NCBI GenBank assembly: GCA_002721545.1
Contig: PBKR01000028.1
Coordinates: forward strand, 1-64,000
Length of the DNA: 64,000 bases
DNA from: Nitrosomonadaceae bacterium
GTDB taxonomy: Bacteria; Pseudomonadota; Gammaproteobacteria; Burkholderiales; Nitrosomonadaceae
Reading direction: 5' to 3'
A program made the position numbers and the translations under genes. This document shows, in pieces, positions 8,777-50,368 of the stretch. The notes under the pieces were generated by a model. The model saw nothing but the letters and a program-made list of their open reading frames with translations. It was not told the origin of the DNA and searched no databases. Positions within the stretch are counted from its first letter, which is position 1, and every line of letters begins with the position of its first letter.

Positions 8777-8936
8777 TTAAATATTAATAATTTATAGAGA
8801 GTAATAAACTTATTTCTATGAAAAATTAAATAAATAAGGCTTCAAAAGAGATTTAAAATGTATTAGATTCCCATAAACACATTGAATCAGATATATATTT
8901 ATGGCAGACTCCATCAGTCTAATGAAAGGGAGCATT

Positions 8937-9764
8937 ATGAAAACAACACATTTTAGAGTACCTAAATTTTCAATTCTGTTATTATCTGGGCTCTTATTTT
9001 CAGGATGTGCCACCACTGAAAATCAGCATGATCCATATGAATCCATAAATCGTTCTATCTTTTCTTTTAATGAGCAAGCAGATAAATATGTATTTAAGCC
9101 TGTAGCTGAAAGTTATAAGTTCATTGCGCCAGAGCCTGTGCAAGTAGGGGCAGGAAATTTCTTTTCTAATTTAGACGATTTTGTAGTGGTCGTTAACGAT
9201 ATTCTTCAACTAAAATTTAGTGAGGCAAGATCAGATGGGTCTCGCCTATTAATTAATACATTTCTGGGGATTGGTGGCTTAGTAGATTTCGGAAGTGATT
9301 ATGGATTTCCTAAGCGTCATGAAGATTTTGGTCAAACTTTAGCTCACTATGGGGTATCCAGTGGGCCATACATAGTTGTTCCATTTTTTGGTGGTTATAC
9401 GGTACGAGATGGAATTGGAGGTATCGTTGATATAGCTACTAATCCAGTTTTTTACGCAGCACCTTTTATGGCTCCCTTTGTTTCACCAACAATAGGGGCT
9501 GGCAAGTTTGTTGATGAACGTAAACAAGTGTTAGATAAAGAAGAAATTGTAAATGAGGCAGCATTAGATAAATATGAGTTTTTACGTGATGCATATTTAC
9601 AGCATCGAAAGAATTTAATATTTGATGGTTCTCCTCCAAATTCTGTAGATGATGAAAAGGAAGCAACTGTTGAGGAGTCCTCTCCTGAGGAAAAGAAGCG
9701 TGATGTTATAATAGAGTATATTGATCCAGAGCCATGGCAACCAATACATGATTCTGAGCATTAA
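8937..9764 (+). CDS. mlaA: Outer-membrane lipoprotein MlaA (VacJ)
   Basis: In the family MlaA forms a ring in the outer membrane that takes mislocalised phospholipids from the outer leaflet and passes them to MlaC. The 275-residue protein has a signal peptide with lipobox LFSGC (cysteine ~22), then the conserved DPYESINRSIFSFNE motif and RHEDFGQTLAHYGV. I use the ATG at 8937, preceded by AAAGGGAG, not the frame start 36 nt earlier. The acidic C-terminal tail (DDEKEATVEESSPEE) is a family-variable extension. Retention is striking because nearby loci have lost LPS genes. mlaBCDEF are not in the window. Confidence 0.93.
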   Translation: MKTTHFRVPKFSILLLSGLLFSGCATTENQHDPYESINRSIFSFNEQADKYVFKPVAESYKFIAPEPVQVGAGNFFSNLDDFVVVVNDILQLKFSEARSDGSRLLINTFLGIGGLVDFGSDYGFPKRHEDFGQTLAHYGVSSGPYIVVPFFGGYTVRDGIGGIVDIATNPVFYAAPFMAPFVSPTIGAGKFVDERKQVLDKEEIVNEAALDKYEFLRDAYLQHRKNLIFDGSPPNSVDDEKEATVEESSPEEKKRDVIIEYIDPEPWQPIHDSEH

Positions 9765-9875
9765 AAAGGGTTAGCTCAAGAAGAGATAGTATGATAATTA
9801 CTAATAATAAAATTTGATTATTATGGCTTGAAGTTTAGTGCTTAATTAAGGTTCTTATATTGACACTAACTTTTT

Positions 9876-10403
9876 TTAATTATTGTTAGCGAATAAAATA
9901 TACACTGAAAAAATACTAAAAACTAGAAAAAAGATAGCTGACCAATTAGGTATAGTTAAGAATATGAATTCCCATTCTATATCTGCACAATCCCCATTAG
10001 CCTCAAACATAATGGGCCACCATTTGGCTATTAATATGTTGTTTATGAATTCTTCTTCCGCACTAATCCCACACTCAAAATTTTCTGAGTATGCGATTAG
10101 CCAGGAATGATGTAATGCCAGTAGTAATCCAAGTAGTGAGAAAATCACCATAAAAATAGAGTATATTTTTTGGCATAGATTTTGAGGATAGTGGATAAAA
10201 TAGAAAAGGGCTGTTAATCCAATGAGCCAATATGCAATGCGTTGTGCTATACAAAGTGGGCATGGTAGAAGGTTGATTACTAATTGAAGGTATAACGCAT
10301 ATCCAATTACATTTGCGCATATAATAAATATTAACAATAAAGCTAATCTTTTACCTAATATCATATACAGTTTAAGGAGGCTACTTGATGTTTCTTGCGC
10401 CAT
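9876..10403 (-). CDS. dsbB: Disulfide bond formation protein DsbB
   Basis: This inner-membrane protein re-oxidises DsbA and passes electrons to ubiquinone. The 175-residue chain has four membrane helices and both redox pairs: C48/C51 in LLPCPLC, and C111 with C139 in the second periplasmic loop. The frame overlaps the upstream DUF423 gene by 23 nt; an alternative ATG at residue 14 (MILGKRLALL) would remove the overlap and put the cysteines close to E. coli numbering. Neither start has a clear ribosome site. It supports an oxidising periplasm and respiratory quinone. Confidence 0.92.
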   Translation of the reverse strand: MAQETSSSLLKLYMILGKRLALLLIFIICANVIGYALYLQLVINLLPCPLCIAQRIAYWLIGLTALFYFIHYPQNLCQKIYSIFMVIFSLLGLLLALHHSWLIAYSENFECGISAEEEFINNILIAKWWPIMFEANGDCADIEWEFIFLTIPNWSAIFFLVFSIFSVYILFANNN

Positions 10404-45004: not shown

Positions 45005-45466
45005 TTATTCATGGATATGGCCATGAGATATTTCTTCTTTAGTAGCAACTCGTATATCTGTAACAGTACAATCAAAATGCAAAGTCATACCTGCTAGGGG
45101 GTGATTTCCATCAACGACTACCTTATCTTTAGTAATATCAGTTACAGTATATATTAATTTAATTTTAGAATTTACTTCTTCCCCTTCAAATTGCATGCCA
45201 ACTTTAATGTCATCAGGTAATACATTACGAGGTTCTATTCGAACTAAATTACTATCATAGTCCCCAAAATGATCCTCGGGTGACATAAGGACACTACAAG
45301 AGTGACCTATTTCTTTGTCTTGTAGCTCTTTTTCAACTATTGGAAAAATTTCATCAAACCCACCGTGTAAGTAACTGAATGGGGAGTCAGTTTGCTCAAT
45401 AATTTTACCTGTAGAATCTAATAACGCATAAGTAATAGATACAACAGTATTTTTTTTTATTTTCAT
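45005..45466 (-). CDS. FKBP-type peptidyl-prolyl isomerase, SlpA/SlyD-like
   Basis: A cytosolic prolyl isomerase/chaperone. The 153-residue chain has the split FKBP domain of the SlyD/SlpA branch: VVSITYALLDSTGKIIEQTD, then DKEIGHSCSVLMSPEDHFGDYD (read in parts) and an inserted IF domain, then VVDGNHPLAGMTLHFDCTV. The tail HGHIHE is short and less histidine-rich than SlyD. It is the last gene of the minus-strand envelope block, 13 nt after rnhB. Confidence 0.9.
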   Translation of the reverse strand: MKIKKNTVVSITYALLDSTGKIIEQTDSPFSYLHGGFDEIFPIVEKELQDKEIGHSCSVLMSPEDHFGDYDSNLVRIEPRNVLPDDIKVGMQFEGEEVNSKIKLIYTVTDITKDKVVVDGNHPLAGMTLHFDCTVTDIRVATKEEISHGHIHE

Positions 45467-45479
45467 TTTATTAAAATTG

Positions 45480-46091
45480 CTAATTACAAGATATTAATTT
45501 TCGTATAGGCGAAAAGCTGCGCCTATGTGCTGATGATATCCCATGGATTTTTAGTGCTTCTAAATGCTTCTTTGTGGGGTATCCCTTATGTTTATCAAAG
45601 CCATATTTTGGAAGAATTTTGTGTAAATAGTACATCTCAGTATCACGTGCTGTTTTTGCAAGAATTGAAGCTGCAGAAATCTCTGTTATTAAACTGTCAC
45701 CCTTAATGATAGTTTGTACTGGAATCTGCAGTCTGGGGCTGTATATGCCATCCACAAGTACTTTATCAGGTTGGAAAGGTAAATTTTCAACAGCTCGCTT
45801 CATTGCTAGCAAGCTTGCCTGTAGTATATTGATATTATCAATTTCTTCTACAGATGCTGAAGAGATTGCCCATGCTATAGAGTCCCTTTTGATTAAATTT
45901 GCGAGTATATTTCTTTTTTTTTCGCTTAGTTTCTTAGAGTCAATTATCCCCTCTATTTTGTTAACTGGATTGAGTACTACACAAGCCGCGAATACTGGCC
46001 CTGCTAATGGCCCTCTACCCGCTTCATCTACTCCACCGGTCATTTCATTTATTGGGACGGGATTTTTCTGTAATAAGTAGTCTTTCATCAT
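45480..46091 (-). CDS. rnhB: Ribonuclease HII
   Basis: It cleaves RNA in RNA-DNA hybrids and at single ribonucleotides in DNA. The 203-residue protein has [18 protein letters not shown] with the first catalytic Asp-Glu, [18 protein letters not shown] and [11 protein letters not shown] chose the ATG at 46091 (MMKDYLLQK), giving the usual short lead before GVDEAGRG. The frame extends to 46142, which would overlap fabZ by 22 nt. In relatives lpxA and lpxB lie between fabZ and rnhB; here the space is about 29 nt. Confidence 0.94.
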
Positions 46092-46120
46092 TAAATAATA
46101 TTTATTAAATATAAATGAAT

Positions 46121-46555
46121 TTATATATCCTTCATTGTACACATTAATTTAGCTTCAGTTGCTACCTTTCCCTCTACTTCTGCTGTGGCAGAATATTTCA
46201 TGACACCCTTAATTTGCCTTTCTATCCTTACTTTTAGTATTAACTGATCACCTGCATAAACTGGCTTCTTAAAGCGAGCTTGATCTATACCAACAAAATA
46301 ATATACAGAGTCATTATCAATTTTCTGATTTAATGTTTTTAGCGTAAGTAGTGCAGCTGTTTGTGCTAGGGCTTCTATTATTAATACCCCTGGCATAATA
46401 GGGTGGTGAGGAAAATGACCTGAAAAGAATGGCTCGTTAATAGTGACATTTTTAAGTGCAATGATTTCTTTCTCTAGATCACATGATAACACTCGATCCA
46501 CTAGTAAAAATGGATAACGATGCGGCAGATATTTCAATATTTCATGAATGTCCAT
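46121..46555 (-). CDS. fabZ: 3-hydroxyacyl-[ACP] dehydratase FabZ
   Basis: It dehydrates beta-hydroxyacyl-ACP in fatty acid elongation. The 144-residue hot-dog protein has [17 protein letters not shown], the catalytic histidine in [13 protein letters not shown] and the glutamate in [12 protein letters not shown], all intact. It is normally flanked by lpxD and lpxA, with which it shares the hydroxyacyl-ACP substrate. Both are absent, but fabZ is kept because membrane lipid synthesis still needs it (inference). Confidence 0.96.
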
Positions 46556-46621
46556 AATACTCCTTAGTGGTAGATAAGTTTTTTTTATGAGAATTTCATT
46601 TAAATACTATTTGTTTTTAAT

Positions 46622-48997
46622 TTAAAACTGGTTCCCAAACACAAATTGAAATGGTTGTAATCTATCTCCTTCTTTTTTATTAAGTGCTTTTGCCAGGCTA
46701 ACTTTAAGAGGGCCCATTGGCGAAACCCAGGAAACAGAAATTCCAGCAGAGTATCGTAGGCCTTCTGTTTTAGGATATAGTCCATTGGGCCCAAATACAG
46801 TACCCGCATCAATGAACGCACCTAATCGGATAGACCTATCATTTTCCATCCCAGGTAATGGAAATAGAATTTCTGCACTTCCAACTACCAGTTTATTTCC
46901 ACCTAATGCCCTACGGGAGGTGTCACGTGGACCAAGCGAGCTTATTCTATAGCCTCGTACTGATCGATTGCCACCGGCAAAGAAATTTTTAAAGAACGGT
47001 AGCTCTCTTCCATCATAGCCATCTCCATAGCCCAGCTTTCCATCTAGCAGAAATGTGAAATTTTTAGAAATAGGGAAATAGTGCTTAGTGTGATAGTTTA
47101 TTTTAAAATATTTAAGGTCTCCTATTGGTACACTTATTTCCCCAAATATTCTATGTGTTGACCCCTTAGTTGGCCAAATGGCACTATTTCTTTCATCTCT
47201 AACAAACCTCATAGTAAGTGGAAAATTGCTAGTAGGATTCCCAAAAGTTGATACAAAATTTCTGTTACGTAAAGGACTTAAGGGTGATAGTGATAGATCT
47301 GTTACTTCAGCCCCAATCCCGACAAATATCGAGTCAATTTCATTAATTGGGAGGCCGAATCGGAAAGCAGCTCCTGTTGTAGCAGATTTGATATTTGATA
47401 CCGCATTTAGGTTATTAGTATTAAGACTTCTATGGTAAAGATCGATTCCTGCTGTTATTCCATCAATGGTAAAATAGGGATCAGTATATGATACAGAGAA
47501 TAATCTTCTAACTGCACCTGTATTTGCTTTAATAGCTAAAAACTTGCCTGTACCAAATATATTAGCCTGTGAGACGTTTCCACTTAATATTATGCCTTCT
47601 TGCTGAGAAAAGCCTAAGCCAACCATGACATTCCCAGTTGGTCTTTCTTTAACCTGAATATTTACATCAATTTTGTCTGTGGCATTGGCCACTGCAGGGG
47701 TCTCTACATTAACAGATTCAAAGTACTTTAGCTTATCTATACGAACCTTAGACCGATTTATTTTGGAAGTTGAATACCAGCCTCCTTCAAGTTGACGAAT
47801 TTCTCTACGAATAACCTCATCACGGGTACGATCATTACCAGATATAGAGATTCTTCTTACGTATACTCTACGACCTGGATCAATGAAAAAAGTAAAAGCC
47901 ACTTCTCTTTTTTCTTTATCTTGTTCAGGCGCAGCATTGACATTAGCAAATCCATATCCATCATCACCTAACCTATCTGTAATAAGTTTAATTGATTTGG
48001 TTAGTTTTTTACGTGAAAATATATCACCAGTTTTTAGCTTAACAAGTTTAAGTAATTCATCTTCTGGAACCTTCATGTCACCTGCCAATTTAATATTTGA
48101 TATTTTATATTGAGGGCCCTCAATTACATTGACTGTAATATAAATATCTTGCATGTCAGGTGTAACAGAAACTTGAGTAGAATCAATAGTAAATTCTAAA
48201 TAGCCACGATCAAGGTAATAAGAACGTAATTTCTCCAAGTCACCAGATAATTTCTGTTTTGAATATTGGTCATCGCTAGTAATCCAAGTCAGGAGGCCAG
48301 GAGTTCTAAGGCTAAAAAGGCCAACAAGCTCTCTTTCTCTGAATGCTTTGCTTCCAACAATGTTTATTTTTCTTATTTTTGCAACTTCTCCCTCATCAAT
48401 ACTAAAATTTAGGCCGACACGATTACGCTCAAGCGGAGTAATCGTAGTAGTAATCTTTACAGAATATCTTCCCTTGCTGATATAATTTTGCTTTAATGAT
48501 TGCTCTGCCTTATCTAATAAAGCACGATCAAAGATACGCGAGACAGCTAAACCTGATTTTCTGAGCCCAGTTTTAAGTTTATCTGGTTCAAACTCGCTTA
48601 CACCGACAAGAGTGACTTCTGCAATAGCTGGCCGTTCTTGTACTATTACTAATAGAACGCCATTTTCAGACTCTAATCGAACATCTTTAAAGAATCCAGT
48701 TGAATAAAGTGCTTTTATCGCATCTGCTGCTTTTTCTTTAGTTAAGGAATCACCAACCTTTATTGGAAGGTAGCTAAATATGGTTCCTGCTTCTGTACGT
48801 TGTATGCCTTCTACTCTGATATCTTTAACTATTAGAATTTTTTCTTCTGAATCATTGATTATGGGTTGTTTTTTGGTATCACCACCAAATATATCAATTG
48901 GCTTATCATCAGTTAATAAATCAATAGATGTATTTTCTGCTAACAGATATGAGGAGTAAAAGAAAAAAATAAGTACAACAAGGCCCTTAATTTTCAT
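46622..48997 (-). CDS. bamA: Outer membrane protein assembly factor BamA
   Basis: BamA inserts beta-barrel proteins into the outer membrane. The 791-residue protein has a signal peptide ending YLLAEN, five POTRA domains (~residues 50-440, the first beginning VKDIRVEGIQRTEAGTI), and a 16-strand barrel with the conserved loop-6 motif RSVRGYR and a C-terminal phenylalanine (FVFGNQF). It follows rseP by three bases. skp and lpxD, which normally come next, are missing; fabZ starts 66 nt downstream. Its presence means that an outer membrane with barrel proteins exists. Confidence 0.96.
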   Translation of the reverse strand: MKIKGLVVLIFFFYSSYLLAENTSIDLLTDDKPIDIFGGDTKKQPIINDSEEKILIVKDIRVEGIQRTEAGTIFSYLPIKVGDSLTKEKAADAIKALYSTGFFKDVRLESENGVLLVIVQERPAIAEVTLVGVSEFEPDKLKTGLRKSGLAVSRIFDRALLDKAEQSLKQNYISKGRYSVKITTTITPLERNRVGLNFSIDEGEVAKIRKINIVGSKAFRERELVGLFSLRTPGLLTWITSDDQYSKQKLSGDLEKLRSYYLDRGYLEFTIDSTQVSVTPDMQDIYITVNVIEGPQYKISNIKLAGDMKVPEDELLKLVKLKTGDIFSRKKLTKSIKLITDRLGDDGYGFANVNAAPEQDKEKREVAFTFFIDPGRRVYVRRISISGNDRTRDEVIRREIRQLEGGWYSTSKINRSKVRIDKLKYFESVNVETPAVANATDKIDVNIQVKERPTGNVMVGLGFSQQEGIILSGNVSQANIFGTGKFLAIKANTGAVRRLFSVSYTDPYFTIDGITAGIDLYHRSLNTNNLNAVSNIKSATTGAAFRFGLPINEIDSIFVGIGAEVTDLSLSPLSPLRNRNFVSTFGNPTSNFPLTMRFVRDERNSAIWPTKGSTHRIFGEISVPIGDLKYFKINYHTKHYFPISKNFTFLLDGKLGYGDGYDGRELPFFKNFFAGGNRSVRGYRISSLGPRDTSRRALGGNKLVVGSAEILFPLPGMENDRSIRLGAFIDAGTVFGPNGLYPKTEGLRYSAGISVSWVSPMGPLKVSLAKALNKKEGDRLQPFQFVFGNQF

Positions 48998-49000
48998 TTT

Positions 49001-50368
49001 TTAAGTGGAGATTAGCCGATTGATGTCGTTATAGACTGCAAAAATCATTAAAGTAAACAATAACAGTATGCCTATTTGTTGACCAATTGCCATGGCTCTT
49101 TCAGACAAAGGGCTACCTTTAATGATTTCAACGACATAATACATCAAATGTCCGCCATCTAATAATGGGATAGGGAGTAAATTTAATACACCTAAGCTAA
49201 TACTTATAAGTGCGAGGAATCCTAGGTAAGGTGCAACCCCCATTTGTGCAGATTTACCAGCGTAATCAGCAATTGTGATAGGTCCACTTAAATTTTTTAA
49301 TGATACTTCTCCCATCACCATTTTCCATAACATTTGTAATGTAAATATGGATGTGTCCCAAGTTTTATTTATTGCTTTTACTATTGCAATATGTGCTGGG
49401 TAATTAGCTTTAATTAATAAATCCTTGAATTTTGAGTGATCAATTTTTGGACTAACACCAATTTTACCAATTTGCTCTCCATTTTTGGTGGTTGTATCAG
49501 GAGTTATTTTTACATTAACTATGGTATTGCCACGTTGTATTTTAATAATTAATGGGTTCTCTGGGTTGTTCTGTATTTTCTGTACAAAATCAGCCCACTG
49601 AGCTATTTTTTCTTCATTAATAGATAAAATTCTATCATTAAAAAGTAGTCCCGCACGATCACCTGCCCCATTTGGTTCTATTTGGTTGATTATTGGTTCA
49701 ATTTCTGGCTGATACACATTTAATCCTATCTTCATTAAGAAATTGGTATCTAGATCATTCACATCTAGTGTACTTAAATTTAATTTTTTCAAAGTAATTT
49801 GTTTACTCTTATTGATAGTTTCGATAATTAAATTATGTTTCTTTTCTACTGCATTAGAAAGAAGAGCCCATCGAGCATCTTGCCAGGTAGATATAGATTC
49901 CCCTCCAATTTTTACTATAGTTTCGCCAGCTTGAAAATTTGCAGCTGCTGCTGGTGAATTAGGAGTAATTTTCCCAAGGATTGGCTTTATGCCATTTACT
50001 CCATGCAAGAAAAGAAGAAAATAGAGAAAAATAGCGAGAAGAAAATTTGCAAGAGGCCCTGCAGATACGATGGCAAAGCGGCGAGCTACAGTAAGATTAT
50101 TAAATGCACGAGATAGGTCTTCAGGGGACACTTTACCTTCTCGTTCATCTAGCATTTTTACATAACCGCCAAGAGGGATAGCTGCTACTACCCATTCAGT
50201 TTTGTCTTTCCCCAAACATTTTTTTATTAATGGCCGGCCAAATCCTACAGAAAAACGTAATACTTTGACATTGCATAAATGTGCAATTAAATAATGGCCT
50301 AGTTCATGAAAAATTATTAGTAGACCTAATGCAATGATGAAAGAAATTATTGTAAAGAGTAGTGTCAT
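49001..50368 (-). CDS. rseP: Site-2 intramembrane zinc protease RseP
   Basis: It cleaves membrane-spanning substrates such as anti-sigma-E factor RseA and leftover signal peptides. The 455-residue protein has the zinc motif HELGHYLIAH (residues ~21-30), two tandem PDZ domains (~residues 115-300), and the third-ligand motif LLPIPLLDGGHLMYY near 400 in a C-terminal membrane helix. It lies between dxr, at an unusually large 223-nt distance, and bamA at three bases. Confidence 0.95.
   Translation of the reverse strand: MTLLFTIISFIIALGLLIIFHELGHYLIAHLCNVKVLRFSVGFGRPLIKKCLGKDKTEWVVAAIPLGGYVKMLDEREGKVSPEDLSRAFNNLTVARRFAIVSAGPLANFLLAIFLYFLLFLHGVNGIKPILGKITPNSPAAAANFQAGETIVKIGGESISTWQDARWALLSNAVEKKHNLIIETINKSKQITLKKLNLSTLDVNDLDTNFLMKIGLNVYQPEIEPIINQIEPNGAGDRAGLLFNDRILSINEEKIAQWADFVQKIQNNPENPLIIKIQRGNTIVNVKITPDTTTKNGEQIGKIGVSPKIDHSKFKDLLIKANYPAHIAIVKAINKTWDTSIFTLQMLWKMVMGEVSLKNLSGPITIADYAGKSAQMGVAPYLGFLALISISLGVLNLLPIPLLDGGHLMYYVVEIIKGSPLSERAMAIGQQIGILLLFTLMIFAVYNDINRLIST

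Follow-up and report, generated by a model that had tools for sequence, protein, structure and literature searches.

The 64,000-nt window analysed in this work (positions 1 to 64,000 of contig PBKR01000028.1, here C28, of the Nitrosomonadaceae bacterium assembly GCA_002721545.1) carries a bamA-fabZ-rnhB cluster from which skp and the lipid A genes lpxD, lpxA and lpxB are missing. The question raised by this locus is whether lipid A, ordinarily the surface lipid of Gram-negative bacteria, was simply discarded or whether something else took its place. Across the family, whose members are free-living ammonia oxidizers, lpxC, lpxB and waaA are lost, the serine palmitoyltransferase gene (spt) and a block of further ceramide-related genes are present, LptD is retained and the permeases LptF and LptG are of the sphingolipid type. 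Most likely, the apparent deletion is one side of an exchange, and we consider it quite probable that lipid A was replaced in the ancestor of the Nitrosomonadaceae by a lipid of the ceramide phosphate type, which would be exported by Lpt.

Extent of the lipid A gene loss

The minus strand of the window has the order rseP, bamA, fabZ and rnhB; the intact betaproteobacterial relative L125 has bamA-skp-lpxD-fabZ-lpxA-lpxB-rnhB, which the original prediction had given as the usual arrangement. Direct reading and a tblastn search with the Skp, LpxD, LpxA and LpxB proteins of L125 (E 1e-5), which gave no match in the window, bore out the predicted absence of the four genes, and the predicted minus-strand spacings of 66 nt (bamA-fabZ) and about 29 nt (fabZ-rnhB) were exact to the base. 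The latter is counted to 46091, where rnhB probably starts at an inner Met codon; the longer GTG open reading frame (ORF) of this gene, 45480-46142, overlaps fabZ.

The loss was followed in a core panel of 61 genomes, made up of the window's own genome, 36 others of the family and 24 drawn from as many other families of the order. LpxC was found in none of the 37 family genomes and in all 24 others. WaaA and LpxB above cut-off were each likewise distributed (0/37 versus 24/24), a trace of LpxB in G016 reaching 20.4 bits against a cut-off of 22.6. The genome-wide search of the window's own genome yielded no LpxC, LpxK, LpxB or WaaA and no LpxA over cut-off, LpxD, LpxH and LpxL being outside the set searched with models of their own. 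Seven weak hits of the LpxA model fell in six ORFs, of which three were identified by Pfam and three from their sequence; they encode sugar acetyltransferases, a fused oxidoreductase-acetyltransferase and GlmU, and none is LpxA or LpxD. The same model also gave hits in 14/14 control genomes, above cut-off in four of them. Relocation of the lpx genes was consequently rejected for the genes searched (LpxA, LpxC, LpxK, LpxB and WaaA), no intact lpxA or lpxB having been found elsewhere in this genome; for lpxD the absence was seen at the bamA locus. The absence of these five proteins (LpxA as judged by its cut-off) supported the earlier claim that lipid A synthesis had been lost with fatty acid synthesis kept.

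Comparison of the bamA loci placed this loss in time. The named loci compared were the best 80 of 536 matches to the window BamA; among them, the closest relatives were uncultured Nitrosomonadaceae (80–82% identity), followed mostly by Nitrosospira, Nitrosovibrio and Nitrosomonas. LpxD was present in two of the 80 loci (L084 and L125) and the remaining 78 gave no match to lpxD, lpxA or lpxB; 74 of these 78 contained fabZ and 72 both fabZ and rnhB. In a BamA tree of 28 rows, the 18 lpx-less ones (17 of the 78 loci and the window) formed one clade (support 100/100) whose nearest outside neighbour was L084, with lpxD (81/85). Because the lpx-less rows are one clade and this neighbour has lpxD, the lpx loss lies on the stem of the Nitrosomonadaceae and is ancestral to the family. 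We also considered that L084 and L125 might have been sorted out of the family merely for carrying lpxD, but the tree puts both outside the lpx-less clade (100/100).

The loss of skp is a different matter. Of the 78 lpx-less loci, 76 reached beyond bamA, and 72 of these had an skp match; skp was not beside bamA in 6/6 readable genomes of the window's genus (its own, G001, G003, G004, G005 and G006). The skp-less bamA neighbourhoods were the window (46556-46621), L046-L049, L299 and L300, with skp retained in the other readable family loci, and no skp remnant was found when the wider bamA-fabZ gap of G003 was searched. Since the lpx loss is family-wide and the skp loss confined to one genus, the latter is a later, separate event, and the joint loss of skp and lpxD that had been proposed was not supported.

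The window's assembly measures 2.01 Mb and is 99% complete with 7.5% contamination. Misassembly and contamination were rejected as explanations, because the same lpxD-less junction occurs in the 74 named loci containing fabZ and the genes on the contigs of bamA and lptFG have their best matches in the same genus (BamA 82%, LptF 90%).

LpxK was matched in 10/10 genomes of the Nitrosomonas-type group g4, in 0/27 other family genomes and in 22/24 genomes outside the family. The g4 proteins (loci L153, L154, L155 and L292-L298) had neither the P-loop GG[T/A/S]GKT nor DDGLQH in 10/10 cases, whereas both motifs occurred in 10/10 outgroup rows, obtained from 11 of 12 outgroup LpxK loci. Three of the ten g4 proteins end in a CPxC tail, which we take to be like that of Trm112/YcaR. 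Loss of the Kdo2-lipid A (Kdo, 3-deoxy-D-manno-octulosonic acid) genes is on record for Nitrosomonas europaea, with lpxK alone left, and for Nitrosospira multiformis, with only an lpxA (Opiyo, 2010; PMC3087551). It is the same loss as that of the family here, with the difference that the Nitrosomonas-type lpxK read by us is without the catalytic-loop motifs; to judge from these g4 proteins, the reported sole lipid A gene of N. europaea would fit a relic.

This LpxK-like protein bears on two other explanations. One is that a non-homologous pathway still yields a glucosamine lipid resembling lipid A, which Lpt would export. The retention of LptD and of an LpxK-like protein in all ten Nitrosomonas-type genomes agrees with it, but that protein lacks its catalytic-loop motifs, the 27 other family genomes have no LpxK match and WaaA is absent from all 37, so that we regard such a pathway as highly improbable. 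The other is plain genome reduction, in which lipid A genes would have decayed as these ammonia oxidizers became streamlined, the outer membrane would be a phospholipid bilayer and LptD and the ceramide genes would be leftovers or unrelated in function. This is how the loss in N. europaea was accounted for by Opiyo (2010), in whose main text (PMC3087551) the words sphingolipid and Lpt are absent, and the missing LpxK motifs are in keeping with it; however, the family genome G010, of 3.7 Mb, is also without LpxC, and MlaA is retained in the window. The evidence from the exporter, given below, weighs further on this point.

Ceramide genes and the Lpt exporter

Serine palmitoyltransferase (Spt) is the first enzyme of ceramide synthesis. 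With model NF047599 it exceeded the curated cut-off in 35/37 family genomes versus 0/24 others, the protein of the window's own genome scoring 604 bits (cut-off 500). Presence of Spt and loss of lpx genes are thus mirror patterns across this family and the other families. In the own genome, spt stands in a single run behind an acyl carrier protein-like ORF (so recognised by eye), a CerR of the epimerase type and a fatty acyl-AMP ligase, and this run matches the AasR-CerR-AcpR-Spt set given for Rhodobacteria, N. eutropha included, in PMC9386255. A CerS/YghO-type N-acyltransferase (L215:13597-14751) shared 45–47% identity with two plasmid genes that are annotated as yghO, and YghO is given in the same source as the counterpart of CC_1154 (CerS) (PMC9386255). 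The genome also encodes a DAGK-type kinase, a MobA-type nucleotidyltransferase and a CDP-alcohol transferase, which were typed by family and not by orthology to CC_1160, CC_1161, CC_1159, CC_1153 and CC_1152.

An LptD match without internal stops was present in 37/37 family genomes (partial in G004). The context ksgA-pdxA-surA-lptD was found in 7/7 family and 2/2 outgroup loci read and, because this order is common to both, the family LptD is, in the seven loci read, the native copy at its ancestral site. All 11 family LptD proteins read had a single cysteine in their N-terminal half and two neighbouring C-terminal cysteines. LptD identity was 38.9% between family and outgroup versus 42.3% among outgroups, the corresponding values for BamA being 55.8% and 56.8% (19 genomes entered; G049 gave no LptD and is absent from the pair counts); the excess over BamA being only slight, LptD divergence was not counted as a sign of adaptation.

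The LptF/LptG pair was found in 35/37 family genomes, with two matches each in 34 and three in G033. Upstream of the pair, all 35 family loci had a CerS/YghO-type acyltransferase and a nucleotidyltransferase, and in 34/35 a lipid-kinase match lay nearby, that of G006 being weak and on the opposite strand; the exception was G026, where a contig end cuts the stretch. None of 11 outgroup LptF/LptG loci read had an acyltransferase, nucleotidyltransferase, kinase or CDP-alcohol transferase, and their permeases were 25–32% identical to those of the window's genome. As a side observation, the third match of G033 (L268, C1:201000-220000; ORF 9192-10274) is an isolated LptF-like gene; a match to the CDP-alcohol transferase falls in the same stretch.

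The relatives of these permeases were found on plasmids. Ceramide blocks with their own LptF/LptG (L286, L287 and L288) occur on plasmids of Pseudomonas and Rahnella: the Pseudomonas conjugative plasmid pBYT5-2 carries CerS-nucleotidyltransferase-lptF-lptG-kinase beside spt, in the same order as the family, and P. veronii and Rahnella plasmids carry related, non-identical blocks. In maximum-likelihood trees, family and plasmid permeases joined with support 100/99 (LptF) and 100/100 (LptG), and a topology constraining the family with the other betaproteobacteria was rejected by the approximately unbiased test (p-AU 0.0012 for LptF and 1.2e-5 for LptG). The LptF tree held 14 of 36 family rows and 9 of 11 betaproteobacterial loci, and the LptG tree 13 of 35 and 10 of 11; family rows were omitted for speed, and the omitted outgroup rows were ORFs not picked up. 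The gene order common to family and plasmids gives this grouping support that is independent of the trees. Plasmids of this kind are likely to serve in transferring the module.

These data turn the balance against genome reduction: LptD is matched free of stops in every family genome, and LptF and LptG belong to a sphingolipid type instead of being eroded betaproteobacterial copies. LptD does also occur in two incomplete LpxC-less genomes outside the family, a point in favour of genome reduction, but overall we find this explanation very unlikely. The "selection-free loss" of the original prediction is for the same reasons a poor fit, given the presence of ceramide genes, the family-wide retention of LptD and the type of LptF/LptG.

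A different cargo for the exporter was also considered, namely that lipid A was lost and ceramides are made, but that Lpt would carry something else (e.g., a polysaccharide-lipid with a keto-sugar) and ceramides would reach the outer membrane otherwise. In the own genome, a KdsB-like cytidylyltransferase (PRK13368, above cut-off; L215:2850-3599) lies about 7 kb from lptG although WaaA is absent, and two ORFs between both genes look glycosyltransferase-like by eye only, one of them having given no Pfam match when scanned. However, LptF/LptG were linked to a CerS-type gene in 35/35 stretches, of which only 14 had a KdsB match inside, and they group with the permeases of sphingolipid clusters, which makes another cargo unlikely.

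The proposed exchange and the points against it

From these genes we infer the enzyme activities, the product, its location in the outer leaflet and the part of Lpt as its exporter. In the ancestor of the Nitrosomonadaceae, the Kdo-lipid A pathway would have given way to a ceramide-based lipid, probably ceramide phosphate or a phosphoglycerate of the kind found in Caulobacter. AasR and AcpR would load a fatty acid, Spt would condense it with serine, and CerR together with the CerS/YghO-type N-acyltransferase would give dihydroceramide, to which the lipid kinase and the nucleotidyl- and CDP-alcohol transferases would attach a phosphate head group. The sphingolipid-type LptF/LptG, the sole pair found in family genomes, would then take the lipid from the inner membrane and the cell's own old LptD would place it in the outer leaflet. 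On balance, although with less assurance than for the replacement as such, we favour that an exporter of lipopolysaccharide (LPS) was in this way converted to a dedicated sphingolipid exporter, its inner-membrane permeases having been exchanged while the native LptD inserts the ceramide lipid.

In a broader sample of 399 genomes from the order, LpxC was present in 377 and Spt in 16, of which 13 belong to the Nitrosomonadaceae; the 13 family members listed were all LpxC-minus and Spt-plus. The other three, G134, G173 and G350, all have LptD, and the parts of their spt surroundings that were read gave no LptF/LptG match. As they keep LpxC, the idea that Spt directly causes lipid A to be lost wherever it occurs was rejected.

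Nine further genomes had no LpxC, and the seven of them listed were two of family f40 (98–99% complete) and five that were 66–87% complete. The two from f40 (genus g43; G075 and G119) were without LpxC, Spt and LptD. They represent a second family of the order without LpxC, in which lipid A loss is of another kind, with Spt and LptD missing too. In f40, where lipid A was lost without ceramide synthesis, the exporter was lost, and in the Nitrosomonadaceae, where it was lost with ceramide synthesis, the exporter was kept; this is a hint, not a proof, that ceramide is the cargo of the retained exporter. The five incomplete genomes may lack LpxC merely through gaps in their assemblies, because other members of their families have it.

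Several observations weigh against a replacement of lipid A by an exported ceramide lipid. The swap is proposed here from gene content, and the own assembly carries the 7.5% contamination already mentioned. Spt stayed below cut-off in two family genomes, G007 (79% complete) and G023 (89%), and LptF/LptG were absent from G001 (72%) and from G023. The CDP-alcohol transferase was matched in just 22 of the 35 LptF/LptG blocks, and the LptF and LptG trees have long branches. The evidence on the exporter consists of LptD and LptF/LptG. Furthermore, the mirror pattern of Spt and lpx genes sits in one clade and is one or few events instead of many independent ones; Spt and LpxC occur together in the three genomes outside the family; the f40 control is two genomes of one genus; and, of the five incomplete genomes without LpxC and Spt, LptD was found in G345 and G359 (not in G226, G243 or G377).

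LPS-lacking sphingomonads, which belong to the Alphaproteobacteria, rely on sphingolipids; they are Gram-negatives without LPS, as the Nitrosomonadaceae appear to be, but of another class. One sphingomonad, Sphingomonas koreensis, is mentioned as lacking LPS and having sphingolipids in PMC11324152 (2024). This source describes the Caulobacter crescentus region for the phosphosphingolipid CPG2 (CC_1168-CC_1152), which includes LptC2, LptF2 and LptG2, and credits N. eutropha with good orthologues for no fewer than 13 of the 17 genes; it calls the sphingolipid route to the outer membrane unknown and suggests Lpt-like transport (PMC11324152). The genes reported here are like that region in having Spt, AcpR, CerR, AasR, CerS, a candidate ceramide kinase and copies of LptF/LptG linked to ceramide synthesis. 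Caulobacter, however, also makes LPS and its LptF2/LptG2 are second versions, whereas in the Nitrosomonadaceae the sphingolipid-type pair alone was found and the lipid A genes are gone. N. eutropha C91 has the same five ceramide genes as those described here, in two separate places (Neut_0458-0461 and Neut_1100), which the part of PMC9386255 (2022) available does not tie to lipid A loss. Within the open full-text literature, a scope that leaves out most subscription papers and all preprints, no paper was found that joins lipid A loss, ceramide genes and Lpt for the Nitrosomonadaceae. The loss in N. europaea and the ceramide genes of N. eutropha are already in print.

Features of the window and significance

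The coordinates of the features of the window are collected in Table 1. The window BamA has an Omp85 domain and five POTRA stretches and is 81–82% identical to the BamA of G001, G004 and G005, of the same genus. The ORF that follows rnhB, presumably an FKBP-type peptidyl-prolyl isomerase to judge by its sequence, was matched at 57 of the 78 bamA loci of the family. In one Nitrosomonas locus (L106) the fabZ-rnhB gap was 1.4 kb, between 13305 and 14720, with no lpxA or lpxB match there. MlaA, of the outer-membrane lipid-asymmetry system, is retained in the window although the genome is without lipid A genes, which fits an outer membrane that would still be asymmetric.

Table 1. Features read in the window, with the evidence for each.
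Feature	Coordinates	Strand	Evidence
mlaA, outer-membrane lipid-asymmetry lipoprotein, kept	8901..9764	+	Pfam MlaA 1.4e-69
FKBP-type peptidyl-prolyl isomerase-like ORF (presumed), after rnhB	45005..45466	-	ORF; no Pfam family in scan
rnhB, ribonuclease HII	45480..46142 (GTG ORF; likely start inner ATG, 46091)	-	Pfam RNase_HII 4.9e-42
fabZ-rnhB junction, 29 nt; site of lpxA + lpxB in intact relative L125	46092..46120		direct reading
fabZ, 3-hydroxyacyl-ACP dehydratase (144 aa)	46121..46555	-	Pfam FabA-like 7.7e-35
bamA-fabZ junction, 66 nt; site of skp + lpxD in intact relative L125	46556..46621		direct reading
bamA, outer-membrane protein assembly factor (791 aa)	46622..48997	-	Pfam Omp85 3e-73, POTRA 7.4e-70
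rseP, site-2 protease, kept, upstream of bamA	49001..50368	-	Pfam Peptidase_M50 3.3e-68

If the proposed exchange is true, the Nitrosomonadaceae would show, as an experiment of nature, that LptD can do without lipid A, and Lpt would be the missing route of sphingolipids to the outer membrane. Where a bacterium produces LPS as well as sphingolipids, its two export systems overlap and cannot easily be told apart; in the Nitrosomonadaceae, without lipid A synthesis and with one LptF/LptG pair, experiments on LptD, LptF or LptG would address the sphingolipid route by itself. The surface expected for cultured ammonia oxidizers would change as well, endotoxin tests being predicted to be negative and LpxC inhibitors to be ineffective. 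The loss of lipid A in this family would then resemble a replacement and not a decay.

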